Shown here: one piece after another, positions 18,664 through 23,101 of the stretch
Position numbering within the stretch: position 1 is the first letter of the stretch
Layout of the letters: the number at the start of each line of letters is the position of its first letter
Origin: Thermoplasmatales archaeon
GTDB lineage: Archaea; Thermoplasmatota; Thermoplasmata; Thermoplasmatales; Thermoplasmataceae
Length of the DNA stretch: 64,000 nucleotides
NCBI GenBank assembly: GCA_026127925.1
Contig: JAJSLM010000002.1
Coordinates: 186,001-250,000 of the forward strand
Reading direction: 5' to 3'
Program-made: the position numbers and the translations under genes
Notes under the pieces: model-generated
Database searches by the model: none
Told to the model about the DNA's origin: nothing
Seen by the model: the letters and a program-made list of their open reading frames with translations, nothing else

Positions 18664-18785
18664 TCGGCCTGTAATTTTTATCGTATTATTGAAAATTAAA
18701 CACAGAATGCGTATTTTCAATCATTTCATACATTTTTCAACTGAGCCTTGCCGACTAATATACAATCGATATGTTATGGTCTTTA

Positions 18786-19211
18786 ATGCAGGGCTCTTTA
18801 AGGATATTCCGTACTGGTTCTTTCGACACCAAAAATCTTGGGCAGTTCCTTGAATTGACGCAGGATTACGAAAACCCGCGTCTTCTTGTATCTGACGGAA
18901 TATTGTTGAACACGGGCTCTATAAGGAAGGACCTGGTAATACAGAGAATACTGACATCAAATCAACTGCAAAGAATACTCATAGACATGGACGATTCGCC
19001 ATGCTATATTCTGATTACGTCACCCGTCATAGAATCCTGGAAAAAGATCATTGTTGAGAGCATATATGACATACTGAAAGTAAAAAGCTACCGAGGGGCC
19101 ATAATTTTTATGAATATAGTCGGAAAAAAAGGCATCTTCGAGTTTTATTTTGGTAAACGAGTAATATCAGAGGAGGGATTTAATTTATGGGCCGAACGAT
19201 ACCAACAATGA
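18786..19211 (+). CDS. Hypothetical protein of the PolB2 locus, possibly a degenerate RecA-like fold
   Basis: 141 residues from ATG 18786 (MQGSLRIFRTGSFDTKN). The in-frame ATG at 18771 lies only ~10 bases from the TATA element AATATAC near 18757-18764, while 18786 has the usual 25-base spacing. Predicted alternating strands and helices (CYILITSPVIESWKKI, GAIIFMNIVG, then IFEFYFGKRV) resemble the later core strands of RecA-family ATPases, but there is no Walker A motif. That likeness is weak and is an inference. Its 3-prime end overlaps the next small gene by 25 bases. Confidence 0.6.
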   Translation: MQGSLRIFRTGSFDTKNLGQFLELTQDYENPRLLVSDGILLNTGSIRKDLVIQRILTSNQLQRILIDMDDSPCYILITSPVIESWKKIIVESIYDILKVKSYRGAIIFMNIVGKKGIFEFYFGKRVISEEGFNLWAERYQQ

Positions 19212-19441
19212 GGCAGTCTGTAGAGGAACTTTCTGCACGGATAGAACGTATGGGCCACCTGATGAACAAAGATGAAATGGAGTTGTTGACAAAACTTATA
19301 CTGAAAGGCAGAAAGCACGCTCATGAAGCCTCGTATTCTTCCCTGGACCCAGAATTCTCGTTCGCACTTTCCGTTCTTATAGAAATGGAAAAGGAGATAC
19401 ATGTTATTAGGGAGCGTTTGGAGAGTCTGGAGACGGAATAA
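19187..19441 (+). CDS. Small helical protein of the PolB2 locus
   Basis: 84 residues, overlapping the upstream gene by 25 bases. A purine-rich Shine-Dalgarno (AGGAGGG, about 19170-19176) inside that gene precedes the ATG at 19187. The sequence is almost wholly helical, with heptad-like segments at both ends (SVEELSARIERMGHL and EMEKEIHVIRERLESLE). No known domain. Overlap and order suggest translation coupled to the preceding gene and a function with the polymerase that follows 55 bases later. Confidence 0.7.
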   Translation: MGRTIPTMRQSVEELSARIERMGHLMNKDEMELLTKLILKGRKHAHEASYSSLDPEFSFALSVLIEMEKEIHVIRERLESLETE

Positions 19442-19496
19442 TATAATACGTTCAATAGAATAATTTGTTATATATTTTACGTAGGAAATGGCAACT

Positions 19497-21515
19497 ATGA
19501 AAATCATAATAAATGCAACTGGGTCCGATGCGATAAGATTATGGGAGTGGGATGGCAAGCATCTCACCTTCAAGGATCACAGAAACAAATCATGGGTATT
19601 CGTTCATGGAGTTGAATACGATCTAGACTTTCTCTCCTCGCAACTCGACCAGTCCAGATTCAGGTATTCCGAATCCTCTGGAAATAATGTATATGGCAAG
19701 ATTAGAGGCCTAAAGGTTGAGGCCTATCCATCAAATATGCCGGATCTTATTCACGCCATAGAGACCATAGGTTTTGGAAGAAAATACAGCATGTATAATG
19801 CCGATATAAACCCTGCATTAAGATTCATGGCTGAAACTGACAGGCAATTCTTTTCCATAGAATCTTTATACGCTTATGATCCCGATATACCTGCAGTATC
19901 AATAACAGGGTCCGTGGTGCATGGAAAGCCTGAAACGATATCTATAAACGGCAAGCCCGAAGAGAAAATAAGTTCCAAATCGCTAACAGATATGGTAAAC
20001 GCAATAAATGGTGCTGTTATTATAATATACGACAACACCGATAAGCTGTTTGAAAACCTACTTAAAATTACACATGGTTTGGGGTTTAAGTTACCTTTTA
20101 TTAGAACATTCTCTGCGCAAACTTATGAATCCTACGGCCAGACCCACTATAAGAATCCGCGTGTCAGTCTCTCCGGTAAAATATGCATCTCGTCGGATTC
20201 TTTCGTATACTCCGAATCTGGATTGGCGGGGCTCATGGAAGTATCAAGGATCTCAGGTCTCCCGATAACCACGGCCTCCGTGGTTACTACCGGAACAGCT
20301 GTTTCATCCCTTGAAGAGGCATATGCCATAAAACATAATATTCTGATACCATTGTATAAAGACGATCACGAGAACGAGAAAACCATTGAAACCCTGTACG
20401 AAACAGACAAAGGTGGAATGGTTCTTCAGCCCGAACCTGGTGTTTACAGCGATGTTTACGAAATTGATTTTTCATCGATGTACCCCAGCATAATAGTTAA
20501 CTATAATCTCTCTCCGGAAACCATGAACCTTTCATCAGGTTTTCATGTACCTGATGCACCATACCATATCTCAACCGATCGAAAGGGTTTCCTCTCAAGC
20601 GCGCTTGGCAATCTCCTAGAAATCAGGTTGTTTTACAAAGCAATAAAAAATTTAGATCCAATATATCAGAAAAGAGATGTAGCCTTGAAATGGATGCTCC
20701 TGACATCCTTTGGGTATACAGGTTATAAGAATGCGAAATTCGGGAAAATAGAGATGCATGAGGCCATCACTGCCATAGGCAGGTGGGCACTGATGCGCGC
20801 AATTAGCCTTGCAAAGGATCAGAACTTTAAGATCATTCATGGTATTGTTGATTCCCTCTGGCTAAGTGGCCAGGGAGACATTGAATCCCTGATTGCAGAT
20901 ATAGAGCACGAAACAAGGATAAAAATAGTTGTAGACGGGCATTACCGATGGATTACATTCCTGCCTTCCCGTTCAGGATTAGGTGCCCTCAACAGGTATC
21001 TGGGGCTCAGGTATGATGGATCTTTCAAGGTTAGGGGCATCGAAGCCCGGAGAAGCGATGTGCCTTACATGGCCATAAAATTCCAGATGGATGCGCTGAA
21101 TATACTGCGTGATTGCAAGACCGTTGATGAAATAGTCGAAAAGAGAACGGAAATACTGAACTTGGAAACCTATTATAAAAATAATCTGAGCTCTTTTCCG
21201 AGAAATTACTATAATATCAATTTTCATATAACAAAGCACTTTGAAGACTATGCGTCCAATACAATCCAGAAACGCATCCTGAAGCAGGTTGAAGGCAAAG
21301 GGCGCGAGATCTGGCCAGGGTCAACAGTAAGGGCTGCAGTTGTAGATAAGAAAATGGATATATTCGATTTTGGTGATAATATTTATGACGATATAGACAT
21401 AAAATTCTATGAACAAATATTATCAAGGGCATTTGAGCCAATAAACTTCCTCATGGACTCGGTATGTAAAAAGATAGAGTTCAATATACTAAACAAAAAT
21501 AATATATTGATATAA
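19497..21515 (+). CDS. polB2: PolB2-like family B DNA polymerase homologue with altered motif C
   Basis: 672 residues from ATG 19497; ATG 19488 is also in frame, but the TATA box at 19469-19478 is 25 bases before 19497. Motif A is intact (DFSSMYPSIIVNYN, about residue 323). Motif B is KWMLLTSFGYTGY near 395. Motif C reads HGIVDSLW near 450, where active family B enzymes have YxDTDS, so the first catalytic Asp is Ile while the second is kept. The exonuclease region has no DxE motif. SRISGLPITTASVVTTGTAV and IKHNILIP resemble archaeal PolB2. PolB2/Dpo2 of Sulfolobales is linked to damage-induced mutagenesis. The protein is probably a lesion-tolerance or structural polymerase, not the replicase. 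Confidence 0.82.
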   Translation: MKIIINATGSDAIRLWEWDGKHLTFKDHRNKSWVFVHGVEYDLDFLSSQLDQSRFRYSESSGNNVYGKIRGLKVEAYPSNMPDLIHAIETIGFGRKYSMYNADINPALRFMAETDRQFFSIESLYAYDPDIPAVSITGSVVHGKPETISINGKPEEKISSKSLTDMVNAINGAVIIIYDNTDKLFENLLKITHGLGFKLPFIRTFSAQTYESYGQTHYKNPRVSLSGKICISSDSFVYSESGLAGLMEVSRISGLPITTASVVTTGTAVSSLEEAYAIKHNILIPLYKDDHENEKTIETLYETDKGGMVLQPEPGVYSDVYEIDFSSMYPSIIVNYNLSPETMNLSSGFHVPDAPYHISTDRKGFLSSALGNLLEIRLFYKAIKNLDPIYQKRDVALKWMLLTSFGYTGYKNAKFGKIEMHEAITAIGRWALMRAISLAKDQNFKIIHGIVDSLWLSGQGDIESLIADIEHETRIKIVVDGHYRWITFLPSRSGLGALNRYLGLRYDGSFKVRGIEARRSDVPYMAIKFQMDALNILRDCKTVDEIVEKRTEILNLETYYKNNLSSFPRNYYNINFHITKHFEDYASNTIQKRILKQVEGKGREIWPGSTVRAAVVDKKMDIFDFGDNIYDDIDIKFYEQILSRAFEPINFLMDSVCKKIEFNILNKNNILI

Positions 21516-21579: not shown

Positions 21580-21735
21580 TTATTTTTTCTTCTTTTTAGC
21601 CGCTACACTCTTTACTGCAGCTTTGCTTGAAGTTGCAGCTTTTGCTGTCTTGCTTGCTGGGGCTTTTGTGGCCTTGCTGGCAGCTGGTGCAGCCTTCTTA
21701 ACAGTCTTCTTTGCCTTTGTTTTTTTCTCAGCCAT
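21580..21735 (-). CDS. 51-residue Lys/Ala-rich histone H1-like basic protein
   Basis: The ORF begins MAEKKTKAKKTVKKAAPA, continues with Ala/Lys/Ser/Thr/Pro only (repeated KAT, KAA, APAS units) and ends with five Lys. There is no aromatic residue and only one acidic residue. This composition matches the tails of eukaryotic linker histone H1 and of bacterial H1-like proteins, which neutralise DNA without folding. A TATA-like TATATAATTA at 21751-21760 (read on the minus strand) lies about 21 bases before the ATG. Thermoplasmatales lack true histones and use the HU-type HTa, so this would be an extra nucleoid protein. The role is inferred from composition and position between polB2 and orc1/cdc6. 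Confidence 0.72.
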   Translation of the reverse strand: MAEKKTKAKKTVKKAAPAASKATKAPASKTAKAATSSKAAVKSVAAKKKKK

Positions 21736-21994: not shown

Positions 21995-23101
21995 TCAACG
22001 GCTCAACAAATTGGTAATCTTGGAGGCCAGGACGGATATCGGGACGTCGTTCACGCTCAATAATTTTGAAACTCCTTTCCCCGCTCCCCTGCCAACGACT
22101 CTGCTTTCTATGAGCCCTACGCTTTCCAACTTTGATACTACTCTGTAGGTCTTAGATTCTGCAATGCTGAAACCATACTGTTCCCCCATGACCTTTGAGT
22201 TCTTGAGTACGCAGCTCATTTCTGCATACGGGCCTGATTTAAGGCAGCCACATACGGAAAGAAGAACGACGAGTTCTTCTGGATCGAGTTCTCCAAGTTT
22301 GCTCTCCGTAACGAACGGGTTTATCATTGATTTAGCCGCTCTTACATCATCAAAACTGAGTGCATTTCCATTCCTGTACTCGCACATGTAGGCTGACTTC
22401 TGAAGCAGTTCTATGGCAATTCTGGCGCTCCCGAATTGCGCAGCTATCTCGCCAATGTACCCCATGATACCGTCGTCAAACGCATCCTGCCTTATCGAGA
22501 GCCTGGCACGCTCGGAAACTATACTTACAAGCTCATCCAAATTATACCTGTTAAAGTATATTGAAGAGAAGGCGCCAAGTGATTTGCGATCAATCTCCGA
22601 CATAAAAATGGACGGGTCCTCCATCGATATAAGGAGTGACGATATTTTCGAACCGTATAATTCATTGGACCTGAGAAGGTTATAGAGTCCTTCACTGTCA
22701 CGCCTTATTATATTTGCACATTCATCCACAACTATTAACATATCGGCGCCTTTGTTATTGATTACTCCATTAAGTATTCCGAATATCTCACCATAGCTCA
22801 TGTTCCATGCTGCAGTAATCTTCCCGAATTTTGAAGCTACGTCCAAAAGCAACTGCCTTATAGTCGGGAAGGAGAGTCCATTTTCATAGACTATCTCCAC
22901 GTCGTGTTCTTCCCTAGCTAGGTACTTTACCGTTGAAGTCTTGCCGGTACCAGAATCTCCATAAATTACAGCAGTGGAGCAATTCCCGTTTTGCAGCGGC
23001 AATATGGAAGTCTTTTTTATCAGATCTATCTGGGACTCCCTGAAACGCATTGAACGCGGAATATATGAGAAATCAAGCGGCTGCGGATTTTTGATAATCA
23101 C
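21995..23101 (-). CDS. cdc6: Orc1/Cdc6 replication initiator
   Basis: 368 residues, AAA+ ATPase that binds archaeal origins and loads the MCM helicase. Walker A GDSGTGKTST is near residue 49, Walker B is MLIVVDECANI near 120, sensor 1 lies around SSLLISMEDPS, and a C-terminal winged-helix domain follows (SIAESKTYRVVSKLESVGLI). The protein is a little shorter than many Orc1/Cdc6 proteins. It starts 8 bases after the radical SAM gene, so it is transcribed from that upstream promoter, and its 3-prime side faces the AT-rich gap. Confidence 0.9.
   Translation of the reverse strand: MIIKNPQPLDFSYIPRSMRFRESQIDLIKKTSILPLQNGNCSTAVIYGDSGTGKTSTVKYLAREEHDVEIVYENGLSFPTIRQLLLDVASKFGKITAAWNMSYGEIFGILNGVINNKGADMLIVVDECANIIRRDSEGLYNLLRSNELYGSKISSLLISMEDPSIFMSEIDRKSLGAFSSIYFNRYNLDELVSIVSERARLSIRQDAFDDGIMGYIGEIAAQFGSARIAIELLQKSAYMCEYRNGNALSFDDVRAAKSMINPFVTESKLGELDPEELVVLLSVCGCLKSGPYAEMSCVLKNSKVMGEQYGFSIAESKTYRVVSKLESVGLIESRVVGRGAGKGVSKLLSVNDVPISVLASKITNLLSR

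Follow-up and report, generated by a model that had tools for sequence, protein, structure and literature searches.

The three same-strand genes at positions 18786-21515 (+) of the window, the 64,000-nucleotide stretch of DNA analysed here, lie in the order iRadA, PPB2, PolB2 and constitute a member of the published PolB2 mutasome, a kind of system already described in other archaea. With a probability of about 0.86, they specify a PolB2 translesion polymerase holoenzyme. The evidence comes from the genes themselves, their motifs and order, their co-inheritance, a well-supported PolB2 clade, a tied orc1/cdc6 gene, and the RecA-like fold predicted for iRadA. Linkage of PolB2 with arCOG07300, a degenerate RadA, and arORC2 was noted by Makarova et al. 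2014 (PMC4104785), and the complex was later modelled, and PPB2 and iRadA named, by Timinskas et al. 2025 (PMC11791011). A preliminary description of the locus had proposed an archaeal mutasome, and this reading matches the holoenzyme model gene for gene in the available part of the latter report.

Table 1. Features of the PolB2 locus in the window.
Feature	Position	Strand	Description
Degenerate repeat copy	18721..18737	+	TCATTTCATACATTTTT; 65 nt before the iRadA start
TATA-like sequence	18755..18762	+	CTAATATA; near relatives have TTAATATA at the same place
iRadA	18786..19211	+	141 aa; predicted degenerate Rad51/RecA-like fold, without Walker motifs
PPB2 (arCOG07300-like)	19187..19441	+	84 aa; N-terminal arm MGRTIPTMRQ
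PolB2	19488..21515	+	675 aa; motif A DFSSMYPS, motif C IVD, D307-K308 loop
Orc1/Cdc6 paralogue	21995..23101	-	368 aa; convergent with polB2; candidate regulator

The longest open reading frame (ORF) for iRadA opens at 18771 (18771-19211, +), but the ATG at 18786 is taken as the start because homologues begin with M-x-G-x-L-R-I. The iRadA and PPB2 frames share 25 nt. Genes for a trehalase-like protein and an arginyl-tRNA synthetase lie upstream of the operon, and past the Orc gene is one for a B12/radical-SAM-type protein. The DNA between polB2 and orc1/cdc6 appears to be specific to the lineage of the window, given that the two genes nearly touch or overlap in most relatives; within it is a 51-residue Lys/Ala-rich ORF (21580-21735, -) of histone-H1-like composition. 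Elsewhere in the order, a single 219-residue ORF at one locus (L112 2321-2980, genome G115) represents an iRadA-PPB2 fusion, a type already reported for PolB2 operons, and PolB2 is split into several frames in G096 (L146) and G109, which may reflect pseudogenes or assembly errors.

The window polymerase matches NCBIfam NF004416 at 605.5 bits, relative to a cut-off of 516, and also matches Pfam DNA_pol_B, while its scores against other PolB models fall far under their cut-offs. Alignment with the second PolB of the same genome bears out three features read earlier from the sequence: motif A is kept, the first Asp of motif C is lost (GIVDSLW versus GDTDS), and the exonuclease I motif of the second polymerase (FDIE) has no counterpart. 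The YxxxD stretch likewise does not align, the second exonuclease motif not being displayed separately. The altered motif C runs through the family: all 46 aligned PolB2 rows have IVD or VVD, and all 19 remaining PolB rows, made up of 14 second polymerases and 5 short PolBs, have DTD. This split is beyond chance, in a count that leaves out the long-branch row L145. PolB2 rows from the order (n=25) comprise 23 with IVD and 2 with VVD, and rows from a scan of named genomes have IVD in 21 of 21. In a 66-row tree, built by a quick method with SH-aLRT support only, lacking PolB1 and flagged for the long branch L145, 47 PolB2 rows separate from the 19 others with a support of 100, and the 14 second polymerases of the order form one group. 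The window protein falls within a Thermoplasmatales PolB2 clade (support 100), apart from the other PolB of its genome. The phylogeny suggested in the preliminary description, from which PolB1 is absent, and the NF004416 score are therefore both in keeping with the assignment to the PolB2 group made there.

Loss of the first Asp of DxD in all PolB2 rows examined, the missing exonuclease I motif, and the origin-type Orc gene adjoining the operon are compatible with an older reading (2008-2014; proposed in PMC4104785, as far as its available text goes), in which PolB2 is catalytically dead and the operon encodes a complex with a structural or regulatory role at origins or stalled forks. This reading is improbable, because Sulfolobus Dpo2, which has a similar change (IID), is reported in the available parts of two papers to be an efficient polymerase (PMC8764526) and the source of targeted mutagenesis (PMC7390963), and because 42 PolB2 sequences show no variation in the motif A Asp or in the fingers region (K401, S407-Y410). 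Beyond the catalytic residues, the window protein has the D(K/R) loop before the palm that belongs to the translesion holoenzyme as modelled. The Asp of this D(K/R)GG loop (here D-K-G-G), D307, is described as contacting PPB2 (PMC11791011) and is invariant among the 42 aligned PolB2 sequences. The predicted structure of PolB2 has a mean pLDDT of 90.5 and matches family-B polymerases at E 1e-33.

PolB2 was matched at better than 1e-50 in 83 of the 117 genomes of the order. A separate search for related loci in genome contigs gave nothing with the window PolB2 as single query and succeeded with an alignment. By our own tally from the listing, these matches are distributed over families as 64/77 in f1, to which the window belongs, 4/5 in f2, 0/18 in f3, 1/1 in f4, 14/15 in f5, and 0/1 in f6. 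Several f3 genomes carry a second PolB of reduced length (about 500-607 aa) that has an intact DTD and forms its own clade (L242-L246 from genomes G006, G021, G019, G011, and G009). Of the 83 PolB2 loci, 61 were examined, that of the window among them. Iterated profiles detect PPB2 in all 61 and iRadA in 56; the five iRadA misses are the f2 and f4 loci, where an unassigned ORF of 182-218 aa fills the same slot. The named-genome scan adds 21 further loci, 20 of them with a PPB2 profile match (L221 among them is the same locus as L141). The mutasome genes thus recur adjacent to each other and on the same strand among the genomes examined, and the neighbourhood survey proposed at the outset finds the small genes accompanying PolB2 elsewhere. 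The window PPB2 carries the signature MGRT and Arg9 of the conserved arm described for the family, with its Arg3 and Arg9 (PMC11791011), and among the 61 profile matches MGR is present in 59 and Arg9 in 58. PPB2 is probably helical, as judged from the published family and from composition. An apparent loss of PPB2 in genus g5 (Ferroplasma-type genomes), suggested by a miss in a single-sequence search, was dropped because the iterated profile found the gene in all six g5 loci examined.

The remaining subunit, iRadA, has no Pfam or NCBIfam match and no P-loop in its sequence, and when the PDB was searched with a profile built from iRadA sequences, one chance-level match and no RecA or RadA chain came back. 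The structure prediction recommended for this 141-residue protein is more informative. The model (mean pLDDT 84.8) aligns best with RecA/Rad51 chains, with Z 10.9 over 142 residues at 3.8 Å for RecA, 10.7 for Rad51, and 10.2 for RadA, consistent with the earlier suggestion of a RecA-like core that lacks Walker motifs. Foldseek on its own gives only E about 1e-3, and other P-loop-like domains (BcsE, FlaH) score like RecA and Rad51 against the model. Because BcsE scores equally well, the predicted fold is described as RecA-like and not as uniquely Rad51. A connection of this operon slot to the Rad51 family is provided by a diverged iRadA in L145 (family f4), an ORF that passes the Pfam Rad51 cut-off (22.9 versus 22 bits). 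Sequence decay has been described for one RadA-like arCOG (PMC4104785, in its available part). A C-terminal WxE in iRadA was considered as a conserved binding motif and rejected, as it tracks gene overlap instead. It occurs in 30 of 36 operons with an iRadA-PPB2 overlap of at least 15 nt and in 0 of 17 without such overlap (L101, L112, and L146 are left out of the count, and the overlap of L132 is mis-measured). Since it is present only with overlap, we attribute WxE to the shared stretch of DNA, whose other frame codes for the MGRT arm.

The Orc1/Cdc6 paralogue of the window has intact Walker A (GDSGTGKT) and Walker B (VVDE) motifs. An orc1/cdc6 neighbour has been published for PolB2 operons (PMC11791011, PMC4104785), and in f1 the association is strict: all 47 loci have a convergent Orc paralogue downstream, compared with 0 of 14 loci of other families. 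Over the 77 f1 genomes, the paralogue (E 1e-60 or better) follows PolB2 without exception, being present together with it in 64 and absent together with it from 13 (Fisher p 5e-15, in a test that ignores shared ancestry and adjacency). Four of these 13 genomes are at least 90% complete. Joint presence and joint absence of this kind might also be expected if operon and Orc, instead of being a core repair system, made up a selfish or mobile cassette that is acquired and lost as a whole. A cassette of this type is very improbable, considering that the PolB2 tree holds f1 and f5 as one clade (100) and that f5 has the three operon genes with no Orc neighbour.

Control of the proposed translesion operon may involve a direct repeat, TCATTTTYTCATTTT, located about 60 nt (60-64 nt) ahead of the start codon in most related operons and considered here a candidate damage-response operator. 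With up to 2 mismatches, TCATTTTNTCATTTT is found upstream of iRadA in 43 of 56 operons. The corresponding figures are 2.3% for dinucleotide shuffles and 1 of 163 for other ORFs at these loci; the scan covered 150 nt, extended to 300 nt for L126, L132, L134, and L138 because their starts are uncertain. The repeat is present in f5 operons, though Orc is not adjacent there, and is absent from PolB2 operons outside f1 and f5 (14 scanned over 1000 nt, best match 3 mismatches). Before the Orc gene itself, it occurs within 2 mismatches in only 2 of 45 upstream regions, with 6 mismatches in the window copy. The copy preceding the window operon has 4 mismatches to the 8-nt-period form and does not exceed what shuffled sequence gives, the conserved aspect being just its position, close to the spacing of relatives; any regulatory claim for the window therefore rests on its relatives. 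The TCATTTT repeat could instead be a core-promoter feature of AT-rich genomes, given its fixed spacing just upstream of a TATA-like sequence and its occurrence in families without an adjacent Orc gene. Its near absence before other ORFs of the same loci and its rarity overall, with just 75 exact sites in 117 genomes versus 1 for the reversed pattern, make this explanation rather unlikely, and an operator is the reading pursued below.

Exact TCATTTTYTCATTTT sites are spread over 46 of the 117 genomes. A looser repeat with an ATG at fixed spacing yields 80 rows in 44 of 117 genomes versus 3 for the control, with the qualification that two rows are alternative ends of one site and that 12 come from G079, a good part of these being copies of one repeated element. 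The fetched DNA contains 67 distinct exact sites. For 33 of them, an ORF that begins with ATG and is 30 aa or longer starts at +60 to +67, relative to 0 to 13 such starts in the other 8-nt bins. The 50 exact sites not tagged iRadA have an ORF at +58 to +65 in 20 cases, versus 2 to 5 in seven control windows. Several exact sites fall within ORFs or precede nothing recognisable, and G072 (86% complete) has repeat sites with PolB2 and Orc not found. In the window genome there is no exact TCATTTTYTCATTTT site, no ORF begins at the expected distance from any of its three one-mismatch sites, and none of the nearest variants of the window's own site lies ahead of repair genes.

The genes behind the repeat are varied. 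They include the Nre repair protein (Pfam Nre_N, Nre_C) in G052 and G057, small ORFs preceding a radical-SAM protein, a small ORF preceding proteins that we take to be isoleucyl-tRNA-synthetase-like, and 60-70 aa proteins that form a family unmatched in Pfam. A distal site is found before radA in 4 of 26 readable loci, all from one genus (4 of 30 loci were unparsed). The 60-70 aa proteins have invariant G, Q, and D residues and sometimes occur as tandem pairs; the repeat precedes them by about 60 nt (L283, L288, L290, L293, L294, L296, L317, L386, L392, L394). When homologues were gathered by protein similarity, 6 of 10 testable loci had the repeat within 2 mismatches (shuffles 0.9%); the 10 remained from 13 loci after two misread ones and one in an operon already found by motif were set aside, and three of the six positives were obtained once the scanned stretch, which had at first failed, was shifted to the leading gene of the pair. 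TnpB/OrfB-type insertion elements (L399 240-1472, L321), with several copies in G079, also have a TCATTTT-type repeat upstream, possibly a damage-linked transposon promoter.

These sites lead to the tentative proposal of an SOS-like Thermoplasmatales regulon. In this scheme, the dedicated Orc1/Cdc6 paralogue, inherited in a four-gene cassette with the mutasome, would bind TCATTTTYTCATTTT about 60 nt before starts and switch on the mutasome along with a lineage-variable set of genes (tandem small proteins, Nre, radical-SAM, radA in one genus, and the TnpB-type element). The sole tie between the Orc protein and the repeat is co-inheritance. Weighing against the scheme are the missing exact sites in the window genome, the confinement of the radA sites to one genus, an Orc gene that mostly lacks the repeat, PolB2 operons outside f1 and f5 that lack it too, the f5 repeats with no adjacent Orc, and the sites in G072. 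A search of the open-licence literature found no described damage regulon for Thermoplasmatales; the shared upstream repeat is the new part and may mark a damage-response gene set.

The PolB2 mutasome presented in the available parts of PMC11791011 and PMC4104785 shares with the window the three genes and their order, the IVD-type motif C, the lost exonuclease motif, the D(K/R) loop, the MGRT arm with Arg3 and Arg9, and the orc1/cdc6 neighbour. Unlike that system, the window has a short iRadA that is unrecognisable by sequence search, and the f1 Orc gene is convergent and one-to-one with the operon. The Sulfolobus Dpo2/Orc1-2 system (PMC7390963, PMC9738581, as partly available) resembles it in having the same polymerase family and an Orc1 paralogue linked to the response. 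Dpo2 is reported to be induced by damage and to account alone for targeted mutagenesis (Feng et al. 2020, PMC7390963) and to act as an extender (Feng et al. 2022, PMC8764526). Orc1-2 binds ANTTTC (PMC9738581), an element readable inside TCATTTTCTCATTTT (as ATTTTC), although short matches like that are common by chance. The Thermoplasmatales repeat is, by comparison, a longer direct repeat that is mostly absent before the Orc gene, whereas Sulfolobus orc1-2 has the element in its own promoter. Pol V (UmuC-UmuD'-RecA) and ImuA-ImuB-DnaE2 also unite a polymerase, a RecA-like partner, and an accessory subunit in damage-induced mutagenesis, but the window polymerase belongs to family B, not Y or C, and its small accessory subunit is of another kind. 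The analogy to ImuA-ImuB-DnaE2 drawn in the preliminary description consequently holds as a functional likeness, not for the polymerase, which is not of family C; the published comparison is with Pol V.

In the proposed holoenzyme, the architecture of which is drawn from published models only, PolB2 would be the catalytic subunit. With its ATP binding lost, iRadA would dock on the PolB2 loop much as one Rad51 subunit does on the next, and PPB2, a small helical subunit modelled as trimeric, would extend its MGRT arm between PolB2, iRadA, and DNA. Following DNA damage, the complex would extend mispaired or lesion-blocked primer ends, allowing survival at the cost of mutation. Polymerase activity, damage induction, and the role in targeted mutagenesis are taken from published Sulfolobales work, and we infer that the Thermoplasmatales version acts like the Sulfolobales PolB2 system. 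The operon adds a diverged, acid-loving group to the range of the published translesion machine and illustrates the degree to which a Rad51-like subunit can decay with the operon still intact. What most deserves to be followed is the possible damage operator shared across the order: if the repeat is an operator, it would give Thermoplasmatales a concrete, testable damage-response element and a list of targets.
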